Shown: positions 5,852-64,000 of the stretch, one piece after another
Position numbering within the stretch: position 1 is the first letter of the stretch
Layout: every line of letters begins with the position of its first letter
Assembly: GCF_030177935.1 (NCBI RefSeq)
Contig: NZ_CP089974.1
Location: 372,001-436,000 of the forward strand
Length of the DNA: 64,000 bases
Source of the DNA: Moraxella haemolytica
GTDB lineage: Bacteria > Pseudomonadota > Gammaproteobacteria > Pseudomonadales > Moraxellaceae
Reading direction: 5' to 3'
Notes under the pieces: generated by a model
The model's database searches: none
Told to the model about the DNA's origin: nothing
Seen by the model: the letters and a program-made list of their open reading frames with translations, nothing else
Translations under genes and position numbers: made by a program

Positions 5852-5917
5852 ATCACTTAGTAATCATCTTCATCATGATGGTTGCTAAGCGGTCGGTAAA
5901 GGTTGGGTGTTTTTTGT

Positions 5918-5946
5918 TTGGCAAATATGGGCAGAACCAGTATAAT
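5918..5946 (+). promoter_or_regulatory. promoter upstream of pyrB
   Basis: TTGGCA (5918-5923), a 17-base spacer and a perfect TATAAT (5941-5946) make a strong sigma-70 promoter 68 bases before pyrB. A second TATAAT lies at 5951-5956. No leader peptide or attenuator was recognised in the short leader. Confidence 0.7.
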
Positions 5947-6013
5947 GTAGTATAATGCATCAATTTTTACTGTATTCTTGCTGTATCTAAACCATATTTA
6001 AATAGGAGACACC

Positions 6014-48194: not shown

Positions 48195-49407
48195 AATGCA
48201 TTCTCCGTGCTGTTTGGCGTTTGATGTTGGCTTGGGTTACAAAGTAATCAAACAAAGGTGCAAACAAGTTAGCGAATAAAATCGCCAGCATGATACCCTC
48301 TGGGAACGCAGGGTTAATCACACGAATGACCACTGTCATAAAGCCGATAAGTAGTCCATACGCCCAGCGTCCTGTGTTGGTGTGTGCGGCGGATACGGGG
48401 TCAGTTGCCATAAATACTGAACCAAACATAAATCCACCAACAACCAAATGCCAATGAGGTGCAAGACCCATCATTGGATTCTCACCGCCAATCATATTAA
48501 AGATAAAGGCAGTAACCACAAGACCGATGATAGAACCTAAAATCACTCGCCAACTGGCGATTTTCATATAGCAAAGTACGATACCGCCAATAATGATCGC
48601 AAGGGTTGAAACCTCGCCAATAGAACCTTGCATTTGCCCTAAGAATGCTTGACTCCAAGATAGGGTATTGCCATAAGCATCAACAAATTTGTCCGCTGTG
48701 ATACCTACTGCTGCTTGCCCTAGTGGGGTTGCACCAGAAAAGCCGTCCACAGCTGTCCATACCGTATCGCCTGACATAGATGCAGGGTAAGCAAAATACA
48801 AGAACGCACGCCCAGCCAATGCAGGGTTTAGGAAGTTTTTACCTGTACCGCCAAAGACTTCTTTAGCAACGACCACACCAAAGCTAATGCCAAGTGCAAC
48901 CTGCCATAGTGGCGTGTCTGGTGGTAGCGATAGGGCAAAGAGTACTGAAGTTACAAAGAAACCTTCGTTCACTTCATGCCCACGCACGACTGCAAAAATA
49001 ATCTCCCACAAAATACCCACCACAAAGGTTACGGCATAAATTGGCAAAAACTGCATCGCTCCATAAGCAAAAGACGCCAAAATGCTATTTGGGTCATAGC
49101 CAAAAAGCCCTGTAATAATGGTACGCCAGCCATCAGGAGTAATGCCAGCGTGAGCCATGTAGGTCAATGCTTGAAAGCCGACATTGTACATACCCCAAAA
49201 CATCGCAGGGAAAGTACATAGCCACACGGTAATCATAATGCGTTTTAAGTCAATGCCATCACGGACATGAGAGGCACTATAAGTTTGAGAGCTTGGTTGA
49301 CGAAAGAAAGTGTCAAACATCTCAAAAATGGCATAGTATTTTTCGTATTTTCCGCCTTTGGTAAAGGACGGTTCCATACGGTCAAAGATATTGTGAATAA
49401 ATTTCAT
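48181..49407 (-). CDS. nqrB: Na+-NQR subunit B
   Basis: 408 residues with about ten hydrophobic helices. The covalent FMN threonine is in G-F-S-G-A-T-P-L (about residue 225). H-N-I-F-D-R-M-E-P near the start and [16 protein letters not shown] are NqrB hallmarks. It binds quinone and riboflavin and forms part of the sodium channel. Confidence 0.98.
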
Positions 49408-49433
49408 CGCTTCTTTTTCCTTGTTGTTATGTC

Positions 49434-50780
49434 CTAGCCTTCAGCTTCAATACGAGTTAAGTTATCACGCAAAATGTCGCCAAACTCATATTTTCCAGGC
49501 GATACAAAAGTGCATAACGCCAAATCTTCTTCATCAAGCTCCAACGCTCCAAGCTCCACTGCTTTTACAATATCTTCTGTGATTAATGCACGCAGTAGCT
49601 GGGTGGGTAGATAATCTTGAGGCATTACTTTTTCATAAGAGCCAATCGGCACCATTGCACGAGGTGAGCCGTTGGTGGTGGTAGTAAACTTGTATTTCTT
49701 GCCTTTGAAAAATTGCGATAAGTAGATTGGCAAGAATGAGAAGCGGTTTGTTCCCAAAGTAAAAAAGTGCATGGTAGGGCGTTCAAAACCTTCCGCTAAG
49801 ACGGATACTTGATTGTGAAAGCGACCTAAATGAGCAACAGTAGAGCTGTACTTACGACCTGATAACACCGAACCTGAGATGATGCGATTTACCTCATCTG
49901 TCAGCTCGCCACGAGTCAATTCTGCCAAATCTGCTCCCCGAGTAGTGCGAATTAGGCGTGGGTTTTTGACTGCAGGGCCTGCCAAACTGATGATGCGGTC
50001 GGTATAAATTTTACCTGTGGTAAATAGCTTACCAATAGCAATCACATCTTGATAACCAATCGTCCAGACTTGTACGCCACGAGCCAGTGGATGTAAAAAG
50101 TGAATATGCGTACCTGCATTACCCGCTGGGTGTTTGCCTGTAAAGCTGTGATATTCGGTGCTGTTAGCGACATTGGTTGCTTTGGCTGGGGCTGTCTGAC
50201 CATGGCAGACAAATGTCTTTGGTGATAAGGTTGAGATGATTGCTAAGCCGTCATTGAATGCCTCAATATCAGCATTGATGATGTCGCTGGCATCGGCACA
50301 TAATGGGTTGGTGTCGGTGGCGGTAACAAAAATCGCTGACGGTGTGCTGTCAATTTCTGGTGTGCGACTAAATGGGCGAGTACGAAATGCTGTCCACTCG
50401 CCTGATGCAACCAATTGTTCTTTAACAACTTCTGTATCAATAGATGCCAAATCTTTAGAAGAATAGGCGTTAAAAGTGATTTCTGGTGCCGCCGCTTCAT
50501 CAACAGCGATGACGATGCTTTCAAAGACACGACGCTCGCCACGATTGATGGCCACCACATGACCACTGGTTGGGGCGGTGTATTTGACACCTGCACGCTT
50601 TTTATCTTCAAACAGCACTTGTCCTTTGGCAACAATATCGCCTTCCTTGACACTCATGGTCGGACGCATACCGATGTAATCATAACCGATAAGGGCGACT
50701 TGAGTTGGCGTGTGCTCACTAATCTCTTTGGCGGGTTCGCCCATGATGGGCAGGTCCAAGCCTTTTTTGATGGTAATCAT
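49434..50780 (-). CDS. nqrA: Na+-NQR subunit A
   Basis: 448 residues, starting [16 protein letters not shown], with [20 protein letters not shown] and the ending that includes V-S-P-G-K-Y-E-F-G. It is the large peripheral subunit and first gene of the operon. No obvious Shine-Dalgarno precedes ATG 50780. Confidence 0.98.
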
Positions 50781-51234
50781 AAGCGCATACTTAAATTAAG
50801 ACCAAAACACACCAGCACAGGCAAATCCAACATCAAGTATTGTTGTGGCTGCCCAAAGGCTGGCTACCAAAATCCTAAAAACATCCAAAACTTACTGGCG
50901 TGGTCATGCCAGCTGGTAAGTTGATTTTGTCTGAAGGTGTGTATGTGTGGGTAAAAGTGGGTATGTGCTTTATTGCTAAAACTTTACCAAATTGCCCCAA
51001 TTCATACAATAATCCTATCAATTATACGCTAAATTATCAAAAATTTACAGAGTTTTTAGTGATTTGGCTGTCAAAAAGTTCATCAAATCCATGATATTTA
51101 ATGATTTTTCAGTTAATCTAAAATTTTTGTATAAAAAATTAAAAATATTGCCTAAATTTATTATTATTTGTTACAATCGCAGGGCTAATCATTTTGGTTG
51201 TTTTTTGTTATTTGAAAAGAAAAAAGAGTGTCTT
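50781..51234. other. divergent promoter region between nqrA and hisA
   Basis: About 450 bases, strongly AT-rich towards hisA. A minus-strand TATAAT at 51026-51021 could serve nqr, but the -35 is poor. No RNA gene, repeat or plausible small coding gene was recognised. The long in-frame extension upstream of hisA has no ribosome site or family similarity. Confidence 0.4.
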
Positions 51235-51966
51235 ATGTCTATGTTAATTATTCCTGCAATCGATCTTAAAGATGGTAAATGTGTCCGTCTCAAACAAGGA
51301 CGCATGGAGGATGATACGGTATTTAGTGATGACCCTGTTGCCATGGCGACACAGTGGGTGGCACAAGGGGCAAGACGCTTGCATTTGGTGGATCTAAACG
51401 GGGCGTTTGATGGCGTGCCTGTACATAAAGAGGTGGTTGCCGCCATCGCTAAAGCTCATCCACAATTGCCCATTCAGTTGGGTGGCGGTGTACGCAGTCT
51501 TGAGACCATTCGCCATTATCTAGAGGTGGGGCTAAACTATATCATTATTGGCACCAAAGCTCTTGAAAATCCTGAATTTGTTGATGAAGCTTGCCGTGGG
51601 TTTGCAGGGCATATCATTGTTGGTATTGATGCTAAAGATGGCTATGTGGCGACACATGGCTGGGCAAATGTTACCGATACTCGTGCCACCGACCTTGCCA
51701 AGCGATTTGCTGATGCCGGTGTGTCGTCCATCGTTTATACCGATATCGCCAAAGATGGCATGATGCAGGGTGTTAATATTGATGAAACAGTCAAGCTTGC
51801 TAAATCTTGTGGTTTGCCCATCATTGCATCTGGTGGGGTAACTAATATGTCAGACATTGAGCAACTAAAGCCTCACAGTGAGTATTTGCTTGGGGCGATT
51901 ACAGGGCGTGCCATCTATGAAGGGACGCTGGATTTATCAGAAGCACAGACCTTTTTGGATAAATAA
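51235..51966 (+). CDS. hisA: HisA isomerase (ProFAR isomerase)
   Basis: 243 residues from ATG 51235; ATG 51241 is also possible. TIM barrel with the catalytic aspartate in [31 protein letters not shown] (second catalytic aspartate) and I-A-S-G-G-V. It carries out the fourth step of histidine synthesis. hisF is not adjacent; instead a terminator and the left edge of an accessory island follow. Confidence 0.96.
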
Positions 51967-51973
51967 GCACAAT

Positions 51974-52003
51974 AAAAAAGAGCGAGATGATTCGCTCTTT
52001 TTT
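51974..52003. terminator. terminator of hisA
   Basis: AAAAAAGAGCGA and TCGCTCTTTTTT pair perfectly around a short loop, starting 8 bases past the stop. Symmetric A/T flanks allow action from both sides. Confidence 0.9.
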
Positions 52004-52016
52004 ATTGGACGGCATT

Positions 52017-52075
52017 TAGTTGTTTTGATGAGCATTCAACACCCAAATTGTGCCATTGCTAAGTAGTGGATAAGC
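52017..52075 (-). pseudogene. orphan 3' end of the lipoprotein gene found at 59990-61228
   Basis: On the minus strand 52075-52017 reads A-Y-P-L-L-S-N-G-T-I-W-V-L-N-A-H-Q-N-N and stop. The intact lipoprotein ends A-Y-L-L-L-S-N-G-T-I-W-V-L-N-A-Q-N-Q. No upstream coding sequence precedes the fragment. Bases 52029-52067 are identical to 60000-60038, and identity over 46 bases is 44. It is best read as the original 3' end left next to hisA when the island entered. Confidence 0.8.
52029..52067. repeat. left 39-bp direct repeat of the island
   Basis: Identical to 60000-60038. The next 8 bases match at 6 positions. It starts 26 bases after the hisA terminator. Candidate attachment site or recombination junction. 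Confidence 0.9.
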
Positions 52076-52294
52076 AATGCCTTGTGTCAACAATTCTACT
52101 CTACTGGTAATGGTTTAATAACTGTATTAAAAGTTAATAGATCAACTTGACTTTGAAATCAGGTGATGAGCAATATAATCATCCCCGCTTATCCTGCAAA
52201 TGCCAAAATGATGCAATGGCTCGTGTTAATCATAGTACGGCTTTTTCAATTTTGTGATATAAAAGCAATGTATGGCAAAGTGCTATAAGTACAG

Positions 52295-53089
52295 CTAAAT
52301 CATCCTTTTGCGAAAATCACTGGGTGACAAACCTGTAAGCTGCTTAAACTGTCTACTAAATGCACTGTGGTCTGTATATCCGCACTGAATGGCAATCTCA
52401 ATCACCGATTCATTGGGGTTTTGTAGTAATTTGACAGCTTTTTCTAGACGAATTTTTTGCAACATTTGCTGTGGTGATAGATTTAATACTGAACGAAATA
52501 GTCTCTCCAGTCCAGAAATACTAAGTCCTGCTATGGTTGCAAGTTTATTGATGGTAATTTTGTGCTCAGCATTGTCTTGCATATAATTAATGATTACTGC
52601 AAGCTTTTCATGGGCTTTTAATTTGTAGCTATTATCCTTGTCAATATCAATGGAAACACCGACCATTGCTATGATTTCATTTGTTTTATTATAAATTGGG
52701 ATTTTGTGTGTAATACACCAACCTAGCTTGCCAGATGGATAAGTATGTAGTTCTAACCTGTCTACGATGGGAGAGCCTTCCAAAACTTTTAGGTCTTGTA
52801 TCATATACTCCCTCCCTTGTTTGTCGCCAAACATCTCAGTAGGAGTTCTGCCAATAATTTGTGCATCATTATTGACATCTAGCCTAGTTTTTAACGTTTG
52901 ATTCACCGCCATGTATTGTGCTTGAGTGTTTTTTATAAAAAACACTGTTGAGCTTAGCAGATCAAGAAGGGGAATGATGGCTTGGATACTGGTGATGAAG
53001 CTATCAAAATCATTAACCAGATATTGGATATCGGCACTATTTTTATTAAACCCTAGTATTTGTAATTGGGGTAAGGCGTATGTGTGCAT
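52295..53089 (-). CDS. AraC-family regulator with PAS-like sensor
   Basis: 264 residues. A PAS-like domain (about 30-150) contains F-F-I-K-N-T-Q-A-Q-Y-M-A-V-N and I-I-G-R-T-P-T-E-M-F. The C-terminal AraC double helix-turn-helix (about 165-262) includes I-A-G-L-S-I-S-G-L-E-R-L-F and the second-helix signature I-A-I-Q-C-G-Y-T-D-H-S-A-F-S-R-Q-F-K. It is transcribed divergently from the catabolic genes with 168 bases between, so it probably controls them, with hydroxyproline or a related compound as possible signal. Confidence 0.9.
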   Translation of the reverse strand: MHTYALPQLQILGFNKNSADIQYLVNDFDSFITSIQAIIPLLDLLSSTVFFIKNTQAQYMAVNQTLKTRLDVNNDAQIIGRTPTEMFGDKQGREYMIQDLKVLEGSPIVDRLELHTYPSGKLGWCITHKIPIYNKTNEIIAMVGVSIDIDKDNSYKLKAHEKLAVIINYMQDNAEHKITINKLATIAGLSISGLERLFRSVLNLSPQQMLQKIRLEKAVKLLQNPNESVIEIAIQCGYTDHSAFSRQFKQLTGLSPSDFRKRMI

Positions 53090-53257
53090 GCTTTTTGCTC
53101 CAAAGTATGGTGCATTGTATCAAATCTGAATGATTGATTGTATGCAAATTGTGCTAAATTCGGCGTTTTTTTAAAGAAATATATCAAGCTTGGTTTTTAA
53201 AAAATCACTAACATAAACTCAAGGATTAATTGAGGCATTAAAACAGGAATAAGATTT

Positions 53258-54220
53258 ATGAGTCATCAAAATTTTTCTCTACACCTAATTGACTCGCACA
53301 CAGGAGGTGAGCCTACACGCATGATTTATAAGGGATTCCCTGAATTGATTGGACGGAGTGTTGCTGAGAAGTTGAAGGATTTTAAACAAAATTATGACCA
53401 TCTTCGCCGATCTATTATCTTGGAACCTCGTGGTAGCGAAGTGATGGTTGGTGCCTTGCTTGTGCCGCCAAGTGATGATTCTGCTGTGGCAGGTGTTATC
53501 TTCTTTAATAATGAAGGATATCTTGGCATGTGTGGACATGGCAGTATTGGCGTGATTACTTCTTTGGCCTATCAAGGGAAAATTGGTGTTGGCGATCATC
53601 GATTAGAAACTCCAGTTGGGATTGTTACAGCAACACTGCATGAAGATGGTAGTTGTAGCATTCGTAATGTGCCATCTTATCGTTACCGCAAACAAGTGGC
53701 GGTAAATGTACCTGACCTAGGCATTATCCATGGTGATATCGCATGGGGTGGTAATTGGTTCTTCTTAATCAATGATCATGGGCAAGATTTGCAACCTTCA
53801 AATATCAAGCAATTAACGCAAGTGAGTCTAAAAATTAAATCAGCACTTAAAAATCAGGGTATTACAGGTGATGATGGTGGCGAGATTGATCATATTGAAC
53901 TGTTTGGCAAATCTAATATCGCTGATAGCAAAAGTTTCGTTCTTTGTCCAGGTGGGGCGTACGATCGTTCACCCTGTGGGACAGGCACTAGTGCCAAAGT
54001 TGCTTGTTTGGCTGCTGATAATAAACTTAAGCCAACCACCATTTGGCGGCAGGAAAGTATCATTGGTAGCGTATTTTTGGCAAGCTATGAGCTTGGTGAT
54101 GATGGCTATAATCAATCTGAAAGCGTAACAATTATCCCAACAATCAGAGGAAGTGCGTATATTAGTGCTGAAACCAAACTTGTAATGCAGGCGGATGATC
54201 CATTTCGTTGGGGGTTTTAA
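53258..54220 (+). CDS. proline racemase family, 4-hydroxyproline 2-epimerase
   Basis: 320 residues. Both catalytic cysteines are present: G-M-C-G-H-G (about residue 90) and [10 protein letters not shown] (about 239). The N-terminal [10 protein letters not shown] is typical. Two cysteines indicate a racemase or epimerase rather than trans-3-hydroxyproline dehydratase, which has threonine at the second site. With the downstream genes this points to trans-4-hydroxy-L-proline being converted to cis-4-hydroxy-D-proline. The next gene starts one base after its stop. Confidence 0.9.
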
Positions 54221-54221
54221 A

Positions 54222-55505
54222 ATGAGTGAAATTAAGACTGATGCTGATTTTTATATCATTGGTGGCGGTGTGATTGGATTGTGTACGGCAATGCGATTGC
54301 AGTCTCAAGGTCAGTCTGTGGTAATTTTGGAGGCTGGTACGGTAGGTACTGGTGCTTCTTTGGGCAATGCAGGACATATTGCAACGGAGCAGGTTTTTCC
54401 CATTGCAGATCCAAGCGTTATTAAGCAACTACCCTCAATGCTCTTTGATCCGCTTGGTCCGTTGAGATTGGATTGGGCTTATTTGCCAAAACTGTTTCCG
54501 TGGGCAATCAAGCTGTTGTTATCTATGAGAGATGAGTCATTTCAAAGAACTCATGAGGCGTTAAAGCAGATAAATGGTGTTAGCCTATCTGCTTGGCAGA
54601 ATTTTGCAGACAAGTGGGGCTTGGATAAGTGGGTTCATACTCACGGCTCTCTGCTGACAGCTGAATCCCAATCTTCTTTATTGCAACTAAAGCAACATGG
54701 TGAGAAATTAGCTGCTCTTGGTGTGGCAAATGACTTTGTTTCTCAAGATGAGCTGGCAGAACGAGAGCCTGCATTGGCAAGCAATCAATTAGGTGCGTTA
54801 TTTTTCCCTAATACCGGTCATATCAGTAATTTAGAGGGGGTATACAAAGTATTGATTGCTCACTTTGTTGGGATGGGTGGTGTCATTTGCGAGAATTGTA
54901 AGGTCAATAAAATTGACGCCACAGAACAGACTGTGCGTTTGATAACTACTAAGGGTGAGATTCTTGCTCCGCACATTATAATTAGTGCAGGAGCATTCTC
55001 AAAACCCTTGGTAATGCAAGCGACAGGCGTTGAAGTTGCACTGGATACAGAGCGGGGCTATCATTTGATGCTACCCAATGAATCAAGCCGTCTTTGCGTG
55101 CCCGTAACAAGCATGGACCGTCGTTTTATTATGACGCCGATGTATGCAGGACTTAGATTGGCGGGTACGGTTGAATTTGCAGGGCTTAAAAAGCCGGCCA
55201 ATATGCAGCGTGCTTATAACCTGCTTAAGCTTGCCAACCCCATGTTTAAGCAAAATTTAGATGATTCACAATCTGAACCTTGGATGGGATTTAGACCTTC
55301 TACAGCAGATTCATTACCTGTTATTGATAAGCTTGGAAGGGTCTATCTGAATTTTGGACATCAGCATTTGGGGCTAACACAAGCAGTGATCAGTGCACAA
55401 CTAATTAGTGATTTGTACTTTAATCAACCATCAGCTATTGATCGCAATCCGTATAAGCTAGAGCGATTTGGTCGCTCTAATATAGGTGATTTGATTGACA
55501 GTTAA
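54222..55505 (+). CDS. FAD-dependent D-amino-acid (D-hydroxyproline) dehydrogenase
   Basis: 427 residues from ATG 54222. The N-terminal FAD motif is I-I-G-G-G-V-I-G-L-C-T-A (about 12-23), followed by L-E-A-G-T-V-G-T-G-A-S-L-G-N-A-G-H, a DadA-like block. The C-terminus has P-S-T-A-D-S-L-P-V-I and F-G-H-Q-H-L-G-L-T. It probably oxidises cis-4-hydroxy-D-proline to 1-pyrroline-4-hydroxy-2-carboxylate at the inner face of the membrane, passing electrons to quinones. It is a single-subunit enzyme, unlike the three-subunit LhpBEF type. Confidence 0.87.
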   Translation: MSEIKTDADFYIIGGGVIGLCTAMRLQSQGQSVVILEAGTVGTGASLGNAGHIATEQVFPIADPSVIKQLPSMLFDPLGPLRLDWAYLPKLFPWAIKLLLSMRDESFQRTHEALKQINGVSLSAWQNFADKWGLDKWVHTHGSLLTAESQSSLLQLKQHGEKLAALGVANDFVSQDELAEREPALASNQLGALFFPNTGHISNLEGVYKVLIAHFVGMGGVICENCKVNKIDATEQTVRLITTKGEILAPHIIISAGAFSKPLVMQATGVEVALDTERGYHLMLPNESSRLCVPVTSMDRRFIMTPMYAGLRLAGTVEFAGLKKPANMQRAYNLLKLANPMFKQNLDDSQSEPWMGFRPSTADSLPVIDKLGRVYLNFGHQHLGLTQAVISAQLISDLYFNQPSAIDRNPYKLERFGRSNIGDLIDS

Positions 55506-55540
55506 TTTAATTAAACATAGCTAAATTAAGGAGAAGCTAT

Positions 55541-56407
55541 ATGAATATCCATGGTATTTTGGTGCCAATTGTTACTCCATTTGACAAAAATGGTGCAGTG
55601 GATGTGCCAACATTGCAAAAGTTGGTTACTTCTTTTATTGACAAAGGTGTGGCTGGTATCGTTGCTTGCGGTACAACTGGTGAATACTACACCCTATCAC
55701 AAAAAGAGCGTGAAGTGGTAATGACAACCATCGCCAAGCATGCCAAAGGCAGAGTCAGTCTGATTGCTGGGGTGAATAGCTTGTCAACTGACCACACCAT
55801 TGAGCTTGCTCATCAAGCCAAGGAGATGGGTTGTGAGGGGTTAATGCTATCAGCAAACCCATATAGTCTGCCGGAACAAGCAGGCATTATTGCTCATTTT
55901 GAAAAAGTGGCCGATGCGGTAAAACTGCCAATCATTATGTATAATTTTCCTGCTCGAGTGGGTGTGAATATTGAATTTGAAACTGTTGAGCGTTTATCTA
56001 AGCATCCTTACATTGTGGGCATCAAAGAAAGTAGTGGTAATTTTAGCCACGCACTTCGTATGCTACAAGCTAAGTTTGAAAATTTTGAGATTGTTTGTGG
56101 CTGTGATGATCAGCCTGTTGACTTCTTCTTTTGGGGGGCAAGAAGTTGGATTGCGGGGGCTGCTAATGTCTTTCCAGAAGAGCAAGTTGCGATTTATCAA
56201 GCTGCTTGCAATGGCGATTGGGATGAGGCACGCCGTATTATGACAGAGATTTATCCCGCCATTCATTCAATGGAATCTGGCGATTATAATCAAAAAGCCA
56301 AAATTGGTTGCTTGAAAGGTACAATTGATGTTGGTGGCGTACGCTTGCCATTGGTTGATGTTCGTGATGAAGATAAACAAGCGTTTTTATCATTGTTAAA
56401 TGGTTAA
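55541..56407 (+). CDS. DapA-family 1-pyrroline-4-hydroxy-2-carboxylate deaminase
   Basis: 288 residues, TIM barrel of the dihydrodipicolinate synthase superfamily. G-T-T-G-E-Y-Y-T-L (substrate loop), I-I-M-Y-N-F-P-A-R (tyrosine about 133) and V-G-I-K-E-S-S-G-N (Schiff-base lysine about 162) are visible. Y-T-L-S instead of the T-L-S-x-x-E pattern of true DapA and the operon context favour the hydroxyproline-pathway deaminase, giving 2-oxoglutarate semialdehyde and ammonia. AAGGAGAA precedes ATG 55541. Confidence 0.85.
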   Translation: MNIHGILVPIVTPFDKNGAVDVPTLQKLVTSFIDKGVAGIVACGTTGEYYTLSQKEREVVMTTIAKHAKGRVSLIAGVNSLSTDHTIELAHQAKEMGCEGLMLSANPYSLPEQAGIIAHFEKVADAVKLPIIMYNFPARVGVNIEFETVERLSKHPYIVGIKESSGNFSHALRMLQAKFENFEIVCGCDDQPVDFFFWGARSWIAGAANVFPEEQVAIYQAACNGDWDEARRIMTEIYPAIHSMESGDYNQKAKIGCLKGTIDVGGVRLPLVDVRDEDKQAFLSLLNG

Positions 56408-56418
56408 GGTTGTGTATT

Positions 56419-57906
56419 ATGATGGCAAAAAATAAAGAAGCTGTTTTTGAGGCAGCAAAGCAGGGTGCATTGTATGCAGGCAATTTAATTGTTGATGCCA
56501 GTCCGTGTCAAGCCACAATGCCAAACACTACTCCAATTGACAACAGTGTCATTGGTAAAATTGACGATGCCACCGAAGAGCATGTCAATCAAGCGGTGGC
56601 ATCGGCTCGTAATTGCTTTAATAAAGGTACTTGGAGGGATAAGCATCCTGCTGAACGAAAGAAGATTATGCAAGCATGGTCGGCCCTACTAAAAGAACAT
56701 GTCGAAGAATTGGCGGCATTGGACTGTATTGATGCAGGCAAGCCAATTAGTGAGTGCATCAATACCGATATGCCAGCAACGCTAGATACTTTTGATTGGT
56801 ATGCTGAGGCGATTGATAAGGTTTTTGGCAAAGTTGCACCAACGGATAATGGTGTTGTTTCATGGATTGTTAAAGAGCCGATTGGTGTGGTGGGTGCTGT
56901 ACTACCATGGAACTTTCCAGCTCAAATGTTTGCATGGAAAGTAGCACCTGCACTCATCATGGGTAACAGCGTTATTGTAAAGCCTGCTGAGCTTACCAGT
57001 CTTTCAGCGTACCGCATGATTGAATTGGCTTATGAGGCAGGTGTACCAAAAGATGCCCTGCAGATGATCTGTGGTCGAGGTGAAGTGGTGGGTGCTGCTA
57101 TTGGCAAGCATATGGATATTGATATGGTATCCTTTACTGGTTCAACCGAAGTTGGGCGTTTATTCTTGCAGTATTCGGCACAAAGTAATCTTAAAGAGAT
57201 TGTTTTGGAGTGTGGGGGTAAAAGTCCGCAGATTATCTTTGAGGATGCTATCATTGATGAAAATATGATTAACAATGTACTATCTGCAGCATTTTGGAAT
57301 ATGGGTGAAAACTGTAGCTGTGGCTCTAGATTGTTGGTGCATAGCAGTAAAAAGCAGCTTCTACTTGAAAAGTTGATTGAAGGCTTGTCTGCTTGGAAAA
57401 TTGGCGACCCACGCCATGACGATGTTGTCTTAGGACCCATGATTGAACAAGCACACTTGGACAAGGTGGTTCATTACCTAGAAACCGCCAAATCAGAGGG
57501 GGCGTCACTGGTAACGGGTGGCAATTTGCTTTCAGACTTGGGTAGTGGATGGTATATCGAGCCGACGATTTTTGATAATGTGACTGCTGACATGACTTTG
57601 TTTAAAGAGGAGGTATTTGGTCCTATTTTGGCTGTGACGACATTTGAGAGTAAGGAAGAAGCTATCAATTTGGCGAATGATAGCAGTTACGGTCTAGCTG
57701 CATCGTTCTATACCCAAAGTCTTAAGTGTGCATTGACGGTTGCCAGAAAAATACAAGCAGGCACAATATCTATTAATGGATTTTCAGAGGGTGACATCAC
57801 AACCCCATTTGGTGGCTATAAGCAATCAGGATTTGGTGGTCGAGATAATGGGATTGAGGCGTTGGAGCAATACTGTCAAACCAAGACCATTTGGGCGATT
57901 TGCTAA
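56419..57906 (+). CDS. aldehyde dehydrogenase, probable 2-oxoglutarate semialdehyde dehydrogenase
   Basis: 495 residues from ATG 56419 (AAGG at 56406-56409). The catalytic glutamate lies in L-E-C-G-G-K-S-P-Q and the nucleophilic cysteine in N-M-G-E-N-C-S-C-G-S-R (about residue 298-300). W-N-F-P-A-Q-M-F-A-W-K and F-T-G-S-T-E-V-G are the NAD(P) fold blocks. The sequence is close to the gamma-glutamyl-aminobutyraldehyde/betaine aldehyde branch, so substrate assignment rests on the operon: oxidation of 2-oxoglutarate semialdehyde to 2-oxoglutarate, completing the route. Confidence 0.85.
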   Translation: MMAKNKEAVFEAAKQGALYAGNLIVDASPCQATMPNTTPIDNSVIGKIDDATEEHVNQAVASARNCFNKGTWRDKHPAERKKIMQAWSALLKEHVEELAALDCIDAGKPISECINTDMPATLDTFDWYAEAIDKVFGKVAPTDNGVVSWIVKEPIGVVGAVLPWNFPAQMFAWKVAPALIMGNSVIVKPAELTSLSAYRMIELAYEAGVPKDALQMICGRGEVVGAAIGKHMDIDMVSFTGSTEVGRLFLQYSAQSNLKEIVLECGGKSPQIIFEDAIIDENMINNVLSAAFWNMGENCSCGSRLLVHSSKKQLLLEKLIEGLSAWKIGDPRHDDVVLGPMIEQAHLDKVVHYLETAKSEGASLVTGGNLLSDLGSGWYIEPTIFDNVTADMTLFKEEVFGPILAVTTFESKEEAINLANDSSYGLAASFYTQSLKCALTVARKIQAGTISINGFSEGDITTPFGGYKQSGFGGRDNGIEALEQYCQTKTIWAIC

Positions 57907-58002
57907 GTAATAAGGACATTCAAGACCCTACCATGCATTAAATGCAAAACCTTTGGGATGTATATTCCATTGGTGGGGTTTATACAACTCAAGGAAATGA
58001 AT

Positions 58003-59445
58003 ATGGAAGATTTCATCAATACCGTAGTAGGTTATATTTGGAGTGATGCTCTGGTGTATCTGGCTTTGGCTGTAGGCATCTACTTCACCATCGCTACAAA
58101 AGGTGTGCAATTTCGCTATCTAAAAGAAATGATTCGTCTATTGTTTGATAAGAATAATTCAGATCAAGGTGTTACTTCATTTCAGGCGTTTTGTATGGCG
58201 TTATCTGGTCGTATTGGCGTGGGTAATATTGCTGGCGTAGCTACTGCGATTGCAACTGGTGGTCCAGGGGCGGTTTTTTGGATGATTGTCATGGGACTGT
58301 TGGGCGGTGCCAGTGCTTTTATTGAATCTACTTTAGCACAAGTCTATAAAGAAAGCTCGGATAAGCAGTATCGTGGTGGCTCGCCTTATTATATTGAAAA
58401 AGGCTTAAAAATGAAGTCTTTTGCGATATTTGTCGCCGCTGTAGTTTGCCTATCGTACGGTGTACTTGTACCAGGCGTGCAGGCAAACACCATCAGTGAT
58501 TCATTCAAAACCGCTTTTGGATTATCGCCCATAGTGACAGGATTGATGGTCATTGTGCCTTTGGCTTTTATCATTTTTGGTGGCATTAAGCGTATTGCTA
58601 GATTTGCCGACAAAGTCATTCCTTTTATGGCAATCTTCTACATTCTTATGATGTTGGTGATTTTAACCTTTAATGCCGTTGCCATTCCTAGTATGATTGC
58701 TTTGATTGTAAAAAGTGCGTTTGGTATGGATGCTGTGTTTGGTGGCATCGTTGGTATGGCAATTTCTTGGGGTGTTCGCCGTGCAGTCTTCTCTAATGTT
58801 GCTGGTGCAGGCGAGGCGACATTCAGTTCTGCTGCTGCAGAAGTTTCACATCCTGCTAAGCAGGGTCTCGTACAGGGATTTTCTGTCTATGTGGACACAG
58901 TGCTTGTATGCACCGCTACAGCATTGATGATTTTGTCAACAGGCATGTATAATGTTCAAGGTCCAGATGGCACTATGTTGGTTGAAAATATGCCTGGTGT
59001 TGCCGCTGGTACAGCATTTACCCAAGCGGCGGTTTCAACGATTTTTGCTGACTTTGGACCAGCATTTGTTGCATTGGCTATATTCTTGTTTGCCTGGACC
59101 TGCTTGCTTGCCTATTATTATATTGCCGAGACAGCCTTGGTATACTTGGATAATCAATTGCGTTATCCTTATTTAAAAACTGTACTTAAGGTCGTATTTT
59201 TGATAATCTGTTTCTTTGGTAGCGTGCAATCAGCAGGTATGATGTGGGCATTGGGCGATATTGGTTTTGGTGTTATGTGTTATTTAAATTTCATCGCCAT
59301 TCTGCTGCTAAGCAGAGTAGCTTTCAAGGTTCTAAAAGACTATGATAATCAGATGAAGCAAGGCTTAGATCCAGTATTTGATCCCAGAAAGGTGGGTATT
59401 GAAAATGCAGATTTTTGGGTGGAGTATAGCGATAAACACCGCTGA
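58003..59445 (+). CDS. AGCS family sodium:amino-acid symporter
   Basis: 480 residues from ATG 58003, placed by AAGGA at 57991-57995; two upstream in-frame ATGs are ruled out by spacing. About eleven membrane helices. The alanine:cation symporter signature is visible: F-C-M-A-L-S-G-R-I-G-V-G-N-I-A-G-V-A, G-G-P-G-A-V-F-W-M and G-V-R-R-A-V-F-S-N-V-A-G-A-G-E-A-T. It is last in the island's operon, so it probably imports hydroxyproline, although family members usually carry alanine or glycine. Confidence 0.88.
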   Translation: MEDFINTVVGYIWSDALVYLALAVGIYFTIATKGVQFRYLKEMIRLLFDKNNSDQGVTSFQAFCMALSGRIGVGNIAGVATAIATGGPGAVFWMIVMGLLGGASAFIESTLAQVYKESSDKQYRGGSPYYIEKGLKMKSFAIFVAAVVCLSYGVLVPGVQANTISDSFKTAFGLSPIVTGLMVIVPLAFIIFGGIKRIARFADKVIPFMAIFYILMMLVILTFNAVAIPSMIALIVKSAFGMDAVFGGIVGMAISWGVRRAVFSNVAGAGEATFSSAAAEVSHPAKQGLVQGFSVYVDTVLVCTATALMILSTGMYNVQGPDGTMLVENMPGVAAGTAFTQAAVSTIFADFGPAFVALAIFLFAWTCLLAYYYIAETALVYLDNQLRYPYLKTVLKVVFLIICFFGSVQSAGMMWALGDIGFGVMCYLNFIAILLLSRVAFKVLKDYDNQMKQGLDPVFDPRKVGIENADFWVEYSDKHR

Positions 59446-59568
59446 TGAATACCTAAGATATGTATCATTGAATGGGGTGTTATTAAAAACAGCACAATAA
59501 ATACCTTCTCACTACAATCCCCACCCTATTCTTTAATGGATATTTTCCTGTTTGCAGAAAAGGGAATA

Positions 59569-59930
59569 TCAAGTGGGGGTGGGTTGAGTATAACCCTGCA
59601 AGAAACTCCCAATAAACTTCTGTATTTTGTGTTTGATTGGTCTTTGATAATAGTGTAAGGACTGTTTAACATGACTAAACAGTCCTTCTGATACCTTATC
59701 AAGTCGTTTTTGCATGGTGGTTCTGACTGATAGGTTGTGCCTCTTAGCAAGCTGTTTATAAGTTTATTTTCCTTGTGTGTATTCTTGCCAAATTTGATCA
59801 TTGCTGATGTCAGCTCTCTCAACAAAATACCAAAAAACATTCCTACGCCGTCTTTCTTGCTTACCTTGTTTTTTACCATTGCTCTTGGTATTTGTAGAGT
59901 CATGGTTATGGCATGTTTTTTAATTTCCAT
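59569..59930 (-). pseudogene. decayed insertion-sequence transposase fragment
   Basis: On the minus strand, after one frame change at an A6 run near 59914, the reading is C-H-N-H-D-S-T-N-T-K-S-N-G-K-K-Q-G-K-Q (zinc-ribbon-like), then I-W-Q-E-Y-T-Q-G-K, stop, T-Y-K-Q-L-A-K-R-H-N-L-S-V-R-T and L-D-K-V (helix-turn-helix). This is the N-terminal layout of a zinc-ribbon/HTH IS transposase; the catalytic domain is missing and about 35 unassigned residues follow to TGA at 59569. The IS family is not certain. The competing 134-codon open frame here (59526-59930) has no protein-like features. A perfect 12-bp hairpin (59657-59668 with 59676-59687) lies inside. Confidence 0.6.
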
Positions 59931-59989
59931 AAAACCTATTTAAAACCATATGGCATCAGACTTTGAGTGGGACAGAGCAGAGATTTTGT

Positions 59990-61228
59990 CTATTGATTCT
60001 GAGCATTCAACACCCAAATTGTGCCATTGCTAAGTAGTAGATAGGCTTGATTATCATTGGAGAGAATTTTGATGATTGGTGCTGGTAAGTTATCAGATAA
60101 AGATACAATATCGCCCTCGGTGGTCAAAATACTGATTTGACGATAGCCTTTATGGGGAATGAGAGCAAAATTGTTACGACCTGCCACCAAATTGGTATCA
60201 AATTCACCAATCGCATGATTAGAGTAACCTTCGCCCAAGACTTTTTCATTCAGTTGATCGCCAGATTGTGTGTATTTGACCAACCGTCCGACCAAATGGG
60301 GCATTTGTATGGCATAAAGATTATCACCAAACACAAAAGGTGACTGCCAGCGATTGTTTGATAAAGGCGTGCTTTGGGCAATGATTTGTAGTTGGTTATC
60401 TACATTGCCAATAACAACCGTGCTTGCTCCATACCCACCACCTGCAATGGTTGTTACCAAATGATTGCCCTTGCTGTGAGGTAAAATCTCAAAGATATTT
60501 GCCTCAAAAACCAAGCCTCTAACCGTTAAGGGCTTGCTAAGCGGTGTAAGACTATGCCGTTCTAAAAATTGCACCTGCCTTGCCTCAATATCATCGCCTA
60601 GTACGCCATGCCGATAAGTTCTGCTGTCTGGGTGGGATAGGACGGCAATGTGTCCGTTGGTATTATCGCCTGTAAAATTGATTTGTACAGGGCGAGCGTC
60701 TGGCATGACAGAACCAAAGCGAGCAACTGCTTGTACACGATTTCCTACCACTTCAAGGCGAACAAGGCTTGCCGTACCGTCATCATGAGCCTCCACAGCA
60801 ATGGTTGCCAAAGGTAGCATGAGCATGGCGGAGTGGGGCGATAGGCGAATGGATGAGTGGTAACGCTGTCCATTTTGGATTAGGTTAAAGTAACCATCTT
60901 TGTCGGCAAAAGCCACTTTATCAAACTTTGCCACAGCGGAGACGCTTGATGATACGCCCTTAGCAAGTTTGATTGGTTTGTCTGGGTGTGGCACTTGCCA
61001 AAGCTCGGCTTTGTCATTGATGATGAGTGGACTGGTGTCATCAACAAGGGTGATTTGTTTGGCAACTCCCACTTCAGATAAATCAAGCTCGCTGAACGCA
61101 TAAAACCGCTCACGCATGGACTGACTGGTTGAGCTTGTGTGTTCGGTGCTGGGTTTGGCACAGGCGGATAAGTTTGCCCCAAGTAGGGTAAGACTTAAGG
61201 TTAGGGCGAGTTTGCGAAAATGATTCAT
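59990..61228 (-). CDS. putative lipoprotein, beta-propeller-like
   Basis: 412 residues from ATG 61228. A signal peptide ends in the lipobox L-S-A-C (cysteine about 23). The rest is beta-strand-rich with repeated blocks such as A-E-L-W-Q-V-P, V-S-S-S-V-S-A-V-A-K-F, H-I-A-V-L-S-H-P-D-S-R-T and Y-L-L-L-S-N-G-T-I-W-V, suggesting a propeller. No known family was recognised. It is exported to the envelope. Its final codons coincide with the island's right repeat, so the present C-terminus (N-A-Q-N-Q) may have come with the island. An ATG four codons upstream is an alternative start. Confidence 0.75.
   Translation of the reverse strand: MNHFRKLALTLSLTLLGANLSACAKPSTEHTSSTSQSMRERFYAFSELDLSEVGVAKQITLVDDTSPLIINDKAELWQVPHPDKPIKLAKGVSSSVSAVAKFDKVAFADKDGYFNLIQNGQRYHSSIRLSPHSAMLMLPLATIAVEAHDDGTASLVRLEVVGNRVQAVARFGSVMPDARPVQINFTGDNTNGHIAVLSHPDSRTYRHGVLGDDIEARQVQFLERHSLTPLSKPLTVRGLVFEANIFEILPHSKGNHLVTTIAGGGYGASTVVIGNVDNQLQIIAQSTPLSNNRWQSPFVFGDNLYAIQMPHLVGRLVKYTQSGDQLNEKVLGEGYSNHAIGEFDTNLVAGRNNFALIPHKGYRQISILTTEGDIVSLSDNLPAPIIKILSNDNQAYLLLSNGTIWVLNAQNQ
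60000..60038. repeat. right 39-bp direct repeat of the island
   Basis: Identical to 52029-52067. It covers codons for the C-terminal L-L-S-N-G-T-I-W-V-L-N-A of the lipoprotein gene, whose stop lies 10 bases to the left. It would regenerate the target gene's end after insertion. Confidence 0.9.
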
Positions 61229-61229
61229 T

Positions 61230-61322
61230 TTACTGCACATCCAAAGTTTTAATGAGTTTTCCTGTATGGTCGTAGCGTTCAGCTTTGGTGATTTTGCCGT
61301 ATTGATAAAGTATTCGACTCAT
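61230..61322 (-). CDS. possible 30-residue peptide coupled to the lipoprotein gene
   Basis: ATG 61322 opens a 30-codon frame that ends TAA one base before the lipoprotein ATG (TAAAATG). The product is Y-G-K-I-T-K-A-E-R-Y-D-H-T-G-K-L-I-K-T-L-like, resembling a single YD/MORN-type strand repeat. The frame is open back to the rnr stop. No good ribosome site is seen, so it may be translated weakly, act as a coupling leader, or be a remnant. Confidence 0.3.
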   Translation of the reverse strand: MSRILYQYGKITKAERYDHTGKLIKTLDVQ

Positions 61323-61379
61323 CGTTGTGCCTGTTTCATGATGAATACTCCAATGACTTTTACGGTTAGGTTGAGTGGT

Positions 61380-63626
61380 TTAGGATTTTTTCTTTTTACC
61401 TTTACTGGTTTTGGTTTTTTTGGGTGTTTTGTCCGTCTTTTCTACCAATACAAAGTCCACCTGCAACAAATCCATATTCACGCCAGCAACCTTAATCAAA
61501 AGCTGTTCGCCCAGTTTAAAGATGCTACCACGCTCGCCAATGAGTGCTTGCTCTCGCTCATTGTATTCATAATACTCAGCTGATAGATTTGAGATGTGAA
61601 TTAGCCCATCGATAAATAGATCATTGAGTGTGATGAATAGCCCAAAATTTGTTACGGTGGTGATTGTTCCCATAAATTCATCACCCAAGTGCTTTTGCAT
61701 ATAATGGCACTTCAACCATGCCTCTACATGGCGGCTTGCCTCTTCAGCACGGCGTTCGGTGATGGAAGTTTGTTCACCTGCTTCATCTAAGGTTTTATAA
61801 ATCGTGTTTTTAGATTTTTTTCCTGTTGTTTTATCCTTAATGGCTCGATGGAGCATAAGGTCGGGATAACGGCGAATTGGACTGGTAAAATGGCTGTATT
61901 CATCATATGCCAAACCAAAATGACCGATATTATCAGGGCTATAATTTGCCTGCATCATAGAACGCAGTAGCATAGAGTGAATGCTTTGGGTATCAGCTCG
62001 TCCTTCGGTCGCCTTGATGACTCGTTGATAGTCAGCATGACTGGGCGATTCATCAGGGAAGGATAAGCCAAAGGATTTAAGATATTCAGAAAGTTTGGCG
62101 GATTTTTCATCGGATGGCTTGTCATGGTTGCGATACAAGGCAGGTAAATCGTGTTTAAGAGCAAAATTTGCCCCACAAGTATTAGCAAGTAGCATCATCT
62201 CTTCAATGAGTTTGTGAGCATCGCCACGAGTGCGTTTTTTGATGTCTTTAATGTCGCCATCTTTGCCAAAGACGATGTAACTTTCCGCTGTTTCAAACGC
62301 CATTGCACCACGCTCGGTACGCTTTTTATCCAAAATTTGATAAAGTTGATACAGGGTATCTACCGATTTACACACAGCAGGGTTCTTGACCAAATCATCA
62401 GGCAAGGTCTCATTGGTGGGGTCGTCAAAATAAGCATTTACTTGATTATAAGTCAAGCGAGCTTGCGAATGCATGACAGCAGGATAAAACTCATAGCCTG
62501 TTACCTTGCCTGCTTTAGATAGCTTAATATCCGCCACCATACAAAGGCGATCTACTTTGGGGTTGAGTGAGCATAGACCGTTAGACAGTACCTCTGGGAG
62601 CATGGGAATTACACGGTGGGGAAAATACACGCTTGTGCCACGCTCATAAGCATCTATATCAAGAGGCGACTGGGGGGTCACATAGTGGCTGACATCAGCG
62701 ATGGCAACCACCACACGGTAGTTGCCTCCTGCCCGTTTGCACGCATAGACCGCATCATCAAAGTCTCTTGCATCCTCGCCATCAATCGTGATGAGTGGCA
62801 AATCTCGCAAATCCACTCGCCCTGCACAATCTGCTATAGTTGGCTCACCATAGCTGTCTGCTTGTTCTAGTGTAGCTTTACTAAACTCAAACGGTATGCC
62901 GTGATTTAGTAAGGTGGTCTCAATGATTAATTCACGGTCGTTTAGGTGGGTTAGAACCTCACTGATTTTGCCTGTGGCGTATTCTTGATAAGTGGGCATA
63001 TCAATAATTGCCACTTTGACGCTATCGCCCACACCCACGCCAAAGCGTGCCACCTCATCATCGGTCAGTGTGATGGGTTGATGACTATTTGCTCCTGATA
63101 ACTGAACAAAGTAGCCGTCATCATCACGCTGTATGACACCAACAAACTCAGTACTGGCTCGGCTGATGATGTTTGTAATGCGAGCCTCTGGGTTGCCACG
63201 AAATTCGCTTGCCACAGCCTCTACCACATCACCATCAAAGACCACACGCATTTGTTTTTCATGGACAAATAAGTCAGGCATGTCATCTAGTGTGATAAAA
63301 CCAAAGCCTTTAGGATTGGCGATGATTCTACCCGTTACGGTGGTAGGCAAGGGTGCAATGCTAAAATGAATGCCATCAGTGCGTTCTAATTGCTTGTCTC
63401 TTAGCATTGCTTTTAAGCGGTTGGTTAGGGCAAAAAATCTCTCTTCGTCGCCCAAAATTTCAAAATGTAGTCCCAAACTTTCCATTGTGGCAGGTTTGCT
63501 GTCGTTATTTAATTGGGCAATGGTTTGTAGGATAAGCAGGCGTGAAGGAATGGGGTTTTGGTATTTATTTGCCTCATCGTGGGCATTGGGGTCGTTCCAG
63601 ATAGGTGTTGTTTGATTTTTTTTCAT
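61380..63626 (-). CDS. rnr: ribonuclease R
   Basis: 748 residues. The domains are: N-terminal helix-turn-helix and cold-shock domains (F-G-F-I-T-L-D-D near 110), the RNB catalytic core with D-G-E-D-A-R-D-F-D-D-A-V (about 282-293) and P-I-R-R-Y-P-D-L-M-L-H, an S1 domain (about 630-720) and a lysine-rich tail. RNase R is a processive 3'-5' exonuclease that degrades structured RNA. ATG 63626 is used. It is divergent from rimI. Confidence 0.97.
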   Translation of the reverse strand: MKKNQTTPIWNDPNAHDEANKYQNPIPSRLLILQTIAQLNNDSKPATMESLGLHFEILGDEERFFALTNRLKAMLRDKQLERTDGIHFSIAPLPTTVTGRIIANPKGFGFITLDDMPDLFVHEKQMRVVFDGDVVEAVASEFRGNPEARITNIISRASTEFVGVIQRDDDGYFVQLSGANSHQPITLTDDEVARFGVGVGDSVKVAIIDMPTYQEYATGKISEVLTHLNDRELIIETTLLNHGIPFEFSKATLEQADSYGEPTIADCAGRVDLRDLPLITIDGEDARDFDDAVYACKRAGGNYRVVVAIADVSHYVTPQSPLDIDAYERGTSVYFPHRVIPMLPEVLSNGLCSLNPKVDRLCMVADIKLSKAGKVTGYEFYPAVMHSQARLTYNQVNAYFDDPTNETLPDDLVKNPAVCKSVDTLYQLYQILDKKRTERGAMAFETAESYIVFGKDGDIKDIKKRTRGDAHKLIEEMMLLANTCGANFALKHDLPALYRNHDKPSDEKSAKLSEYLKSFGLSFPDESPSHADYQRVIKATEGRADTQSIHSMLLRSMMQANYSPDNIGHFGLAYDEYSHFTSPIRRYPDLMLHRAIKDKTTGKKSKNTIYKTLDEAGEQTSITERRAEEASRHVEAWLKCHYMQKHLGDEFMGTITTVTNFGLFITLNDLFIDGLIHISNLSAEYYEYNEREQALIGERGSIFKLGEQLLIKVAGVNMDLLQVDFVLVEKTDKTPKKTKTSKGKKKKS

Positions 63627-63718
63627 AAACTTCTCATCAAAATTTTTACAATTTTACTAAAAATAAAATAGATTTTCGTTTATCATATCACACTTTTAAG
63701 GGAAATTTTTAGTTAAAT

Positions 63719-64000
63719 ATGATGGCTACAGTATTTCAAATTGATGACGCACGCCGTGCTGAGCAGGGTGGTTATGTCAGTCAAATAGCTCGCATTGAGC
63801 GTGAGCTGTTTTTTGATGCTTGGGACAGTTTGTCGGTCTGTTCAATGCTGTCGCAGTTTGGGGTTGGGCTTTTGATCGCATTGAATGATGAAGATGAAGT
63901 GGTGGGTTATTTGATTTATCAGATTGTCTTTGAGGTGGCGGAGGTCTTACGCATTGCGACAGATATTGGTTTTCAAAAACAAGGCATGGGCAAGATGCTT
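63719..64000 (+). CDS. rimI: RimI-like ribosomal-protein alanine acetyltransferase, 5' part
   Basis: 94 codons before the window ends. GNAT fold: an early I-A-R-I-E-R-E-L-F-F-D-A-W block, then V-V-G-Y-L-I-Y-Q-I and the acetyl-CoA loop beginning I-G-F-Q-K-Q-G-M-G-K-M-L. RimI-type proteins have this arrangement (the family E-x-x-x-F-x-x-x-W). Two tandem ATGs (63719, 63722) can start it. The specific substrate remains inferred. Confidence 0.75.
   Translation, partial: MMATVFQIDDARRAEQGGYVSQIARIERELFFDAWDSLSVCSMLSQFGVGLLIALNDEDEVVGYLIYQIVFEVAEVLRIATDIGFQKQGMGKML

Follow-up and report, generated by a model that had tools for sequence, protein, structure and literature searches.

Gene content of the island

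The window analysed here is a 64,000-nucleotide stretch of contig NZ_CP089974.1 of Moraxella haemolytica, a genome we call G000. Near its right end, a set of six catabolic, transport and regulatory genes lies between hisA on one side and a lipoprotein-like gene and rnr on the other, and is bracketed by a perfect direct repeat (Table 1).

Table 1. Features of the hisA-rnr region, with positions in the window.
Feature	Position	Strand	Remarks
hisA, left flank	51235..51966	+	Pfam His_biosynth; TIGR00007 above cut-off
G000/G005 exchanged block	51942..61448	.	99.23% identical, 73 mismatches/9,503 aligned bases
Terminator-like hairpin	51970..52007	.	16-bp perfect arms, 6-nt loop, T-rich run at end
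Orphan native lipoprotein-gene 3' end, own stop	52015..52075	-	reads IWVLNAHQNN-stop; adjoins hisA
Direct repeat, left copy	52029..52067		39 bp, perfect
Gene-tail fragment inside left copy	52168..52254	-	resembles 3' tail of a ~180-aa gene found elsewhere in Moraxella
AraC-type regulator with PAS domain, oriented away from operon	52295..53089	-	PF12833, PF08448
Proline-racemase-family protein, likely 4-hydroxyproline 2-epimerase (Cys-Cys type)	53258..54220	+	PF05544
FAD-dependent amino-acid dehydrogenase, likely cis-4-hydroxy-D-proline dehydrogenase	54222..55505	+	PF01266; role from context
DapA-family protein, putative deaminase	55541..56407	+	PF00701; deaminase role from context
Aldehyde dehydrogenase, likely alpha-ketoglutarate semialdehyde dehydrogenase	56419..57906	+	PF00171; role from context
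AgcS-family sodium:amino acid carrier	57958..59445	+	PF01235; TIGR00835 above cut-off
Degraded transposase remnant, in-frame stop	59572..59874	-	weak IS256-variant similarity (E 0.0046); right piece by eye
Lipoprotein-like gene, right flank of island, part of exchanged block	59990..61240	-	lipobox by eye
Direct repeat, right copy	60000..60038		39 bp, perfect; last codons of intact lipoprotein gene
rnr (ribonuclease R), right flank	61380..63626	-	PF00773

By its gene content, the cargo is a predicted hydroxyproline operon of the ordinary Moraxellaceae kind. The gene order is the same in a Psychrobacter hydroxyproline operon and is shared with that of Moraxella cuniculi, where the operon is located elsewhere in the genome. 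The bacterial trans-4-hydroxyproline pathway, as outlined in PMC4364671, comprises an epimerase, a D-hydroxyproline dehydrogenase, a deaminase and a semialdehyde dehydrogenase, and the island resembles the operons described there in that the gene set is complete and forms a single divergent cluster, and in its Cys-Cys epimerase motifs (MCGH and DRSPCGTG in ORF 53258-54220, found by eye against the motifs given in that paper). The epimerase-like protein scored 432.4 bits against NF010577, slightly below the cut-off of 442, and its PDB relatives include 4j9w/4j9x. The DapA-family protein is above the cut-off of the NCBIfam dapA model (TIGR00674), so its assignment as a deaminase rests on context. 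Starts of the two dehydrogenase genes were picked by eye (54222 and 56419; the listed ORFs begin at 54195 and 56410). Compared with known trans-4-hydroxyproline operons, the island is unusual only in its chromosomal placement. Among the listed titles of papers on Moraxella and hydroxyproline, none concerns this island, which may nevertheless have been published before.

Repeats and insertion site

The two repeat copies start 7,971 bp apart, and the match can be widened to 47 bp with 2 mismatches (96%). Both borders are sharp, with 1-7 matching positions per 15-base step outside the repeat on either side. A chance origin is ruled out: about 3e-11 such pairs are expected in the 2.12-Mb genome at the base composition of the window. 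A conserved regulatory sequence is likewise ruled out, since a 30-nt core of the repeat, with up to 3 mismatches allowed, occurs in the genome only at the two island borders, and is in frame there as the lipoprotein C-terminus.

At the right border, the repeat forms the end of ORF 59990-61240, whose product ends in NAQNQ. We found no Pfam or NCBIfam family for this lipoprotein-like gene, which is present in 8/22 genomes of the genus. In the six lipoprotein-gene genomes other than G000 and the second island carrier described below, its 3' neighbour is either hisA (n=3) or an ordinary gene (n=3), as judged by eye from ORF lists. The left copy is where the lipoprotein gene natively ended, now orphaned beside hisA. 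Its stop is 48 bp from the hisA stop, and the true lipoprotein stop is at 42 and 44 bp in two island-free species (G016 and G020), whose lipoproteins end in GHQHDL, similar to the orphan HQNN. The lipoprotein gene of a third island-free genome, G007, stops 160 bp from hisA, and its product ends in SLLK, unlike HQNN. The original prediction thus held for the perfect repeat around a complete catabolic cassette, for the right copy completing a lipoprotein gene and for the left copy being an orphan 3' end next to hisA. It made no mention of the transposase remnant inside the right copy, of the gene-tail fragment inside the left one or of the block exchange described below.

That prediction would gain support from island-free versions of the hisA-rnr interval in some strains. 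These exist in G007, G016 and G020, which have hisA, the lipoprotein gene and rnr without the island, and G009 has hisA and rnr ~120 bp apart with neither lipoprotein gene nor island. Each empty site was seen in a single genome of another species, the comparison being across species, not strains. From the native gene end in the left copy and the existence of island-free sites, we conclude that there was a real insertion with tail duplication, and that the cassette entered the lipoprotein gene at its 3' end as first proposed.

Exchange of the island between species

A second Moraxella species (G005) carries the same island at the same site, with the same lipoprotein allele and 47-bp repeats at 96%. 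Identity between G000 and G005 is high throughout the exchanged block, non-coding parts included, and is 98.9% for the lipoprotein gene. In the flanks, there are 546 mismatches in 2,253 positions on the left (75.8% identity) and 421 in 2,164 on the right (80.6%), and the steps in identity at both block borders can be placed to within ~130 bp. The mismatch map puts the final ~25 bp of hisA and the final ~70 bp of rnr within the block. Among 71 alignable half-kb segments over 100 kb, those with >92% identity between the two genomes fall either in the block (19) or in the rRNA operon region (10). Judged from pairwise identities only, the flanks and the island have different relationships, with hisA of G005 closer to that of G016 (88.5%) than to that of G000 (79.8%). 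Given a block at 99.2% between flanks at 76% and 81%, we conclude that it moved between species by homologous replacement. On this alignment evidence, a 9.5-kb block was exchanged between two Moraxella species, with one end close to the hisA terminator and the other close to the 3' tail of rnr. The swap took place by DNA recombination, and explaining it therefore takes no dedicated mobility enzyme.

Other features of the interval are also shared. The core of the terminator-like hairpin is common to G000, G005, G007, G016 and G020 (5 of the 12 aligned hisA ends), and a second pair, G016/G020, has a stretch of 96.8-99.6% identity over the lipoprotein gene but 73-83% at the start of hisA. All seven genomes tested encode a ComEC-type Competence domain; the E. 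coli control was also positive, so this domain is no proof of competence. DNA-uptake-sequence enrichment was rejected, as none of the 9- and 10-mers in 90 kb was strongly over-represented. In a paper on M. catarrhalis, it is stated that some mechanism seemingly limits horizontal acquisition in that species.

Alternative explanations

Genomic islands that bear an integrase insert at gene 3' ends, regenerate the end and are flanked by direct repeats. The original prediction drew this analogy, while pointing out that the island has no integrase and that its target is a protein gene rather than a tRNA. Both of the latter points stood. The family search, which covered the six long ORFs between the repeats and, of the shorter overlapping ones, ORF 59526-59930, found no site-specific recombinase, and a tRNA target is ruled out by the lack of any tRNA in 48000-64000. 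The analogy itself did not gain support. An integrase-driven island, now stranded, would have entered the lipoprotein 3' end as a circular element, leaving 39-47 bp attL/attR sites and a recombinase that was lost or acted in trans. In favour of this reading, the target is a gene 3' end regenerated by incoming DNA, direct repeats derive from the target, relatives (other species) have empty sites, the repeat is sharply delimited on both sides and a remnant of mobile DNA adjoins the inner edge of the right copy. Besides the missing recombinase, however, there is no second site in the genome, no inverted repeat of at least 6 bases in the 39-bp core and a target gene confined to 8/22 genus genomes, and the movement that can be demonstrated is the 9.5-kb homologous replacement, with its sharp step in identity and differing flank and island relationships. 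Phage or plasmid origin was rejected on megablast, which gave no match at the sensitivity used; for viral contigs, one exact 34-nt pattern was absent. We regard an integrase-driven origin as unlikely.

A second alternative is that two tandem lipoprotein genes were ancestral, the operon having replaced the body of the left one and left only its tail. A tail fragment of another gene is likewise present in the left flank (74-82% nt identity to the ~180-aa gene, for which we found no Pfam family), so gene bodies have disappeared from this place. The left copy slightly resembles the G003 protein beyond the repeat, but not significantly, its score being equalled by 18% of random frames, and we therefore did not use the resemblance; the other 7 lipoproteins score -14 to -17 against its upstream peptide. 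A 47-bp match at 96% with abrupt loss of similarity on both sides fits duplication better than diverged paralogues, and none of 57 genomes has two lipoprotein-gene matches. Tandem genes are very improbable in our estimation.

Transposition with a long target-site duplication, the degraded insertion sequence being the former vehicle, would explain both the transposase remnant beside the right repeat and the direct repeat at both ends. To our knowledge, however, target duplications of known insertion sequences are far shorter than 39-47 bp. No Pfam family was found for the pieces or for ORF 59526-59930. The IS256-variant similarity is weak, the 22 genus genomes hold no relative apart from the G005 copy of the remnant and 72,556 plasmid records gave one 45% match, on which grounds the remnant was rejected as the vehicle and transposition appears most improbable. 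Vertical inheritance of an old insertion by G000 and G005, which could account for the same site and repeats in both, is hardly credible, as it conflicts with the abrupt change in identity at either end of a block that is 99.2% identical, non-coding parts included, and with the affinity of G005 hisA to that of G016.

Proposed origin

We return to a single integrase-free insertion with tail duplication, followed by an interspecies block swap, which we consider the probable explanation of the whole. The hydroxyproline operon would have inserted once, between hisA and rnr, into the final ~20 codons of the lipoprotein gene, leaving the native end orphaned beside hisA and a second copy ending the intact gene. 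As far as can be seen, this first insertion would have proceeded without a site-specific recombinase; most likely, the incoming DNA already bore part of the lipoprotein tail and was joined by RecA-type recombination. A circularised fragment could have entered by a single crossover, an event that gives direct repeats with sharp ends. Alternatively, homology-facilitated illegitimate recombination could have been anchored in the lipoprotein-rnr region with an illegitimate join in the recipient's lipoprotein tail; the island structure would fit a recipient in which one junction is homologous and the other illegitimate. Later, the 9.5-kb stretch with island, both repeats and lipoprotein gene moved between species by homologous double crossover, close to the hisA end or terminator that they share and to the end of rnr; natural transformation is a plausible vehicle. 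The insertion, the tail duplication, the empty sites and the block exchange are shown by the data, and the route of first insertion, the substrate and transformation as the vehicle are what we infer. Among the possibilities raised earlier (a stranded element, a cassette mobilised in trans or a recombination product), we favour the last, with integrase-free recombination as the source of the duplication.

Such integrase-free insertion of foreign DNA beside homology is described in PMC3240628 and PMC2884548, and its single-crossover form duplicates; in PMC3240628, single crossovers of re-circularised fragments in E. coli gave direct duplications of 109-950 bp. Those systems, as presented there, are experiments in E. 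coli or other laboratory hosts or involve small variable segments. At 47 bp, the repeat seen here is shorter than those duplications, and the same footprint could also stem from an integrase that was later lost. The High-Pathogenicity Island of E. coli, according to PMC2606025, spread by recombination of flanking backbone DNA, and is similar in being fixed at one chromosomal site and moving with its flanks by homologous recombination. In contrast to that account, two species with flanks at 76% and 81% are involved here, no integrase or tRNA site was found and the cargo is small and catabolic.

More tentatively, and with considerable doubt, the hisA-rnr interval may be a recurrent site of integrase-free exchange, in which conserved ends, the hisA terminator and rnr tail, would serve as anchors, cargoes (nothing, the lipoprotein gene, the lipoprotein gene plus hydroxyproline operon, or a TonB-dependent receptor) would be swapped between species via DNA uptake and new cargo would be captured by tail-duplicating recombination.

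An integrase-like footprint, with a 3'-end target and direct repeats, can thus stand without an integrase, which calls for caution in island-finding. Here, a complete metabolic island in which no mobility gene was found has crossed a species border with flanks of only 76% and 81% identity. The predicted cargo would permit use of a collagen breakdown product, and may be kept for that reason.

Direct repeat and the native end of the lipoprotein gene

In the M. haemolytica genome, a single 2,123,211-bp contig, the hydroxyproline island lies between two copies of a direct repeat, one beside hisA and one in the 3' end of a lipoprotein-like gene (lipo). Both repeat borders are sharp, with 1 to 7 matches per 15-base step outside the repeat on either side, and about 3e-11 such repeat pairs are expected in the genome from base composition, confirming the original prediction that a direct repeat brackets the cassette. 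Allowing up to 3 mismatches, the 30-nt core of the repeat occurs twice genome-wide, only at these two copies.

Features of the hisA-rnr region of M. haemolytica; identities of flanks and block are to the second island-bearing species (G005)
Feature	Position	Remarks
Left flank	49675-51941	75.8% identity (546 mismatches/2,253)
hisA	51235..51966 (+)	
Exchanged block	51942-61448	99.23% identity (73 mismatches/9,503; 5 gap columns)
Hairpin	51970-52007	Between hisA and left repeat copy
Left repeat copy	52029-52067	39 bp, perfect; extends to 47 bp with 2 mismatches
Gene-tail fragment	52168-52254	Island side of left copy; 74-82% identity to tail of a gene whole in G004 (M. cuniculi) and G006; tail matches also G008
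Six island genes		AraC + PAS, proline racemase family, FAD dehydrogenase, DapA family, aldehyde dehydrogenase, AgcS carrier (Pfam, NCBIfam)
lipo	59990..61240 (-)	
Right repeat copy	60000-60038	As left copy
rnr	61380..63626 (-)	
Right flank	61449-63613	80.6% identity (421 mismatches/2,164)

The left copy is the native end of the lipo gene. M. haemolytica and G005 share its minus-strand reading, IWVLNAHQNN-stop, and in M. haemolytica its stop is 48 bp from that of hisA. Of the genomes without the island, G016 and G020 have 42 and 44 bp between the lipo and hisA stops and a protein ending in GHQHDL, and G007 has a distance of 160 bp to hisA and a protein ending in SLLK. The intact right-hand lipo gene ends NAQNQ, so its last codons are unlike the native end. 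The hairpin next to hisA has the same core in these five genomes (5/12 hisA ends aligned). It is a repeated terminator-like element, with its sequence recurring elsewhere in several Moraxella genomes (e.g. in G005 near 1168883 and 1567614).

The hisA-rnr interval across Moraxella

The lipo gene is present in 8 of the 57 relatives searched, all 8 within the genus. A hisA with at least 85% protein identity was found in 13/22 genus genomes, and hisA and rnr are near each other in seven of these; the comparisons are between species, each represented by one genome, and several of the genomes are drafts. Lipo and island both lie between the two genes in M. haemolytica and G005, lipo without the island in G007, G016 and G020, and neither in G009, where the spacing is about 120 bp. 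In G013 the gap is about 5.5 kb and holds a TonB-receptor-like gene and a transposase-like piece (contig C10; L165 2141-5998). In the remaining six, hisA and rnr are on separate contigs (G008, G011, G014, G015, G021) or far apart (G006), and rnr was not found in the 14-16 kb around hisA. In G021, methyltransferase, GtrA-like and glycosyltransferase genes separate rnr from lipo, together with a gene that has no family (L016 2923-6532); in G017 the two are separated by an Eco57I-type methylase gene and another gene with no family (L015 296-2510). The other side of lipo is therefore variable too.

Exchange between two species

The same island and the same repeats are found in G005, and the block that holds them together with lipo is a recent homologous replacement between the species. 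On the left, the final flank mismatch is at 51941 and the following one at 52031; on the right, identity is complete over 61324-61448 and mismatches become more frequent beyond it. In a 100-kb scan, 71 half-kb windows were alignable over more than half their length, with a median identity of 81.2%, and 29 of these exceed 92%: 19 belong to the block and 10 to a stretch made up almost wholly of rRNA operon (Rfam). The lipo genes of the two species are 98.9% identical, and the hisA of G005 is 88.5% identical to that of G016 vs 79.8% to that of M. haemolytica. The G005 assembly is listed with 2% contamination, yet the block lies within a 2.27-Mb contig carrying G005's own flanks. The island is a clear case of interspecies exchange.

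Cargo and ends of the island

The hydroxyproline cargo is ordinary. The epimerase carries the Cys-Cys type motifs MCGH and DRSPCGTG and, counted by eye, a Cys six residues ahead of DRSPCG, a position at which hydroxyproline epimerases have Cys or Tyr and proline racemases have Phe (PMC4364671). Its NCBIfam epimerase scores are slightly below the cut-offs (432.4 vs 442 and 407 vs 450 bits), and its relatives with structures include 4j9w/4j9x, of which 4J9X is a hydroxyproline epimerase (PMC4364671). The roles of the other enzymes we infer from the hydroxyproline pathway context; the DapA-family gene alone scores over the NCBIfam cut-off for dapA proper. The G005 copy of the DapA-family gene is divided between two reading frames in the present assembly (L011 about 5864-6726), so the operon there may be non-functional, or this may be an assembly error.

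The epimerase was found in 3/22 genus genomes and 35/199 family genomes, 4 of these 35 being only distant matches (31-35%). M. cuniculi has all six genes too, at 78% nucleotide identity, and there they lie beside a different gene resembling radA (by eye). Of 80 retained Psychrobacter loci we examined six, and five have all six genes in the same order, the sixth being cut by a contig end after the third gene.

The island ends look like accumulated fragments rather than a tidy element. The gene-tail fragment resembles the end of a gene for a ~180-aa protein with no Pfam family, which may be a roaming gene. Among the stretches compared (L121, L123, L125), L121 and L125 contain this gene in full, and its neighbours vary; those in L125 are, by eye, a Fic-like protein and a LysR-like regulator. 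A degraded transposase, interrupted by an in-frame stop, lies on the island side of the right copy. It has weak similarity to IS256 variants (E 0.0046) and shares 45% identity with one ORF of a Klebsiella plasmid; among 22 genus genomes it is present only in M. haemolytica and G005.

Proposed route of insertion and possible repeated exchange

The island was inserted at the lipo 3' end with a 47-bp duplication, and recombination in the flanks later carried the whole stretch from one species to another. It shares the footprint of integrase islands, but their defining recombinase was not found among its family-searched ORFs and it is therefore not classed among them; the likeness to an integrase-driven element originally proposed is not supported. 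We infer that the first insertion took an integrase-free route. In one such route, a circularised fragment that bears the operon together with a copy of the lipo tail would undergo a single crossover with the lipo tail. In the other, homology-facilitated illegitimate recombination, incoming DNA would pair at lipo-rnr and its other end would be joined within the recipient's lipo tail. Either would give the structure as observed. In E. coli experiments, a PCR product diagnostic of duplication was reported in 56/60 clones, the 14 sequenced duplications being 109-950 bp, and 4/60 seemed to be of the illegitimate type (PMC3240628). Among small variable segments, 10-18% are reported to be flanked by direct repeats, most of them <30 bp (PMC2884548).

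Natural transformation is a plausible vehicle. A ComEC-type domain is present in 7/7 genomes tested, although E. coli has one too, and no uptake-sequence enrichment was found within 90 kb. Flank-mediated spread is also described for the E. coli High-Pathogenicity Island (PMC2606025), except that the Moraxella case crosses species.

The lipo gene was probably exchanged in a second species pair as well. G016 and G020 are 96.8-99.6% identical from about the hisA end across lipo into rnr (L013 4501-6500), vs 68-88% in the 3.5 kb ahead of hisA and 73-83% at the hisA start, and identity to the right is patchy (72-98%). The left border would again lie in the 3' part of hisA, and this second high-identity stretch suggests repeated exchange of the hisA-rnr interval.
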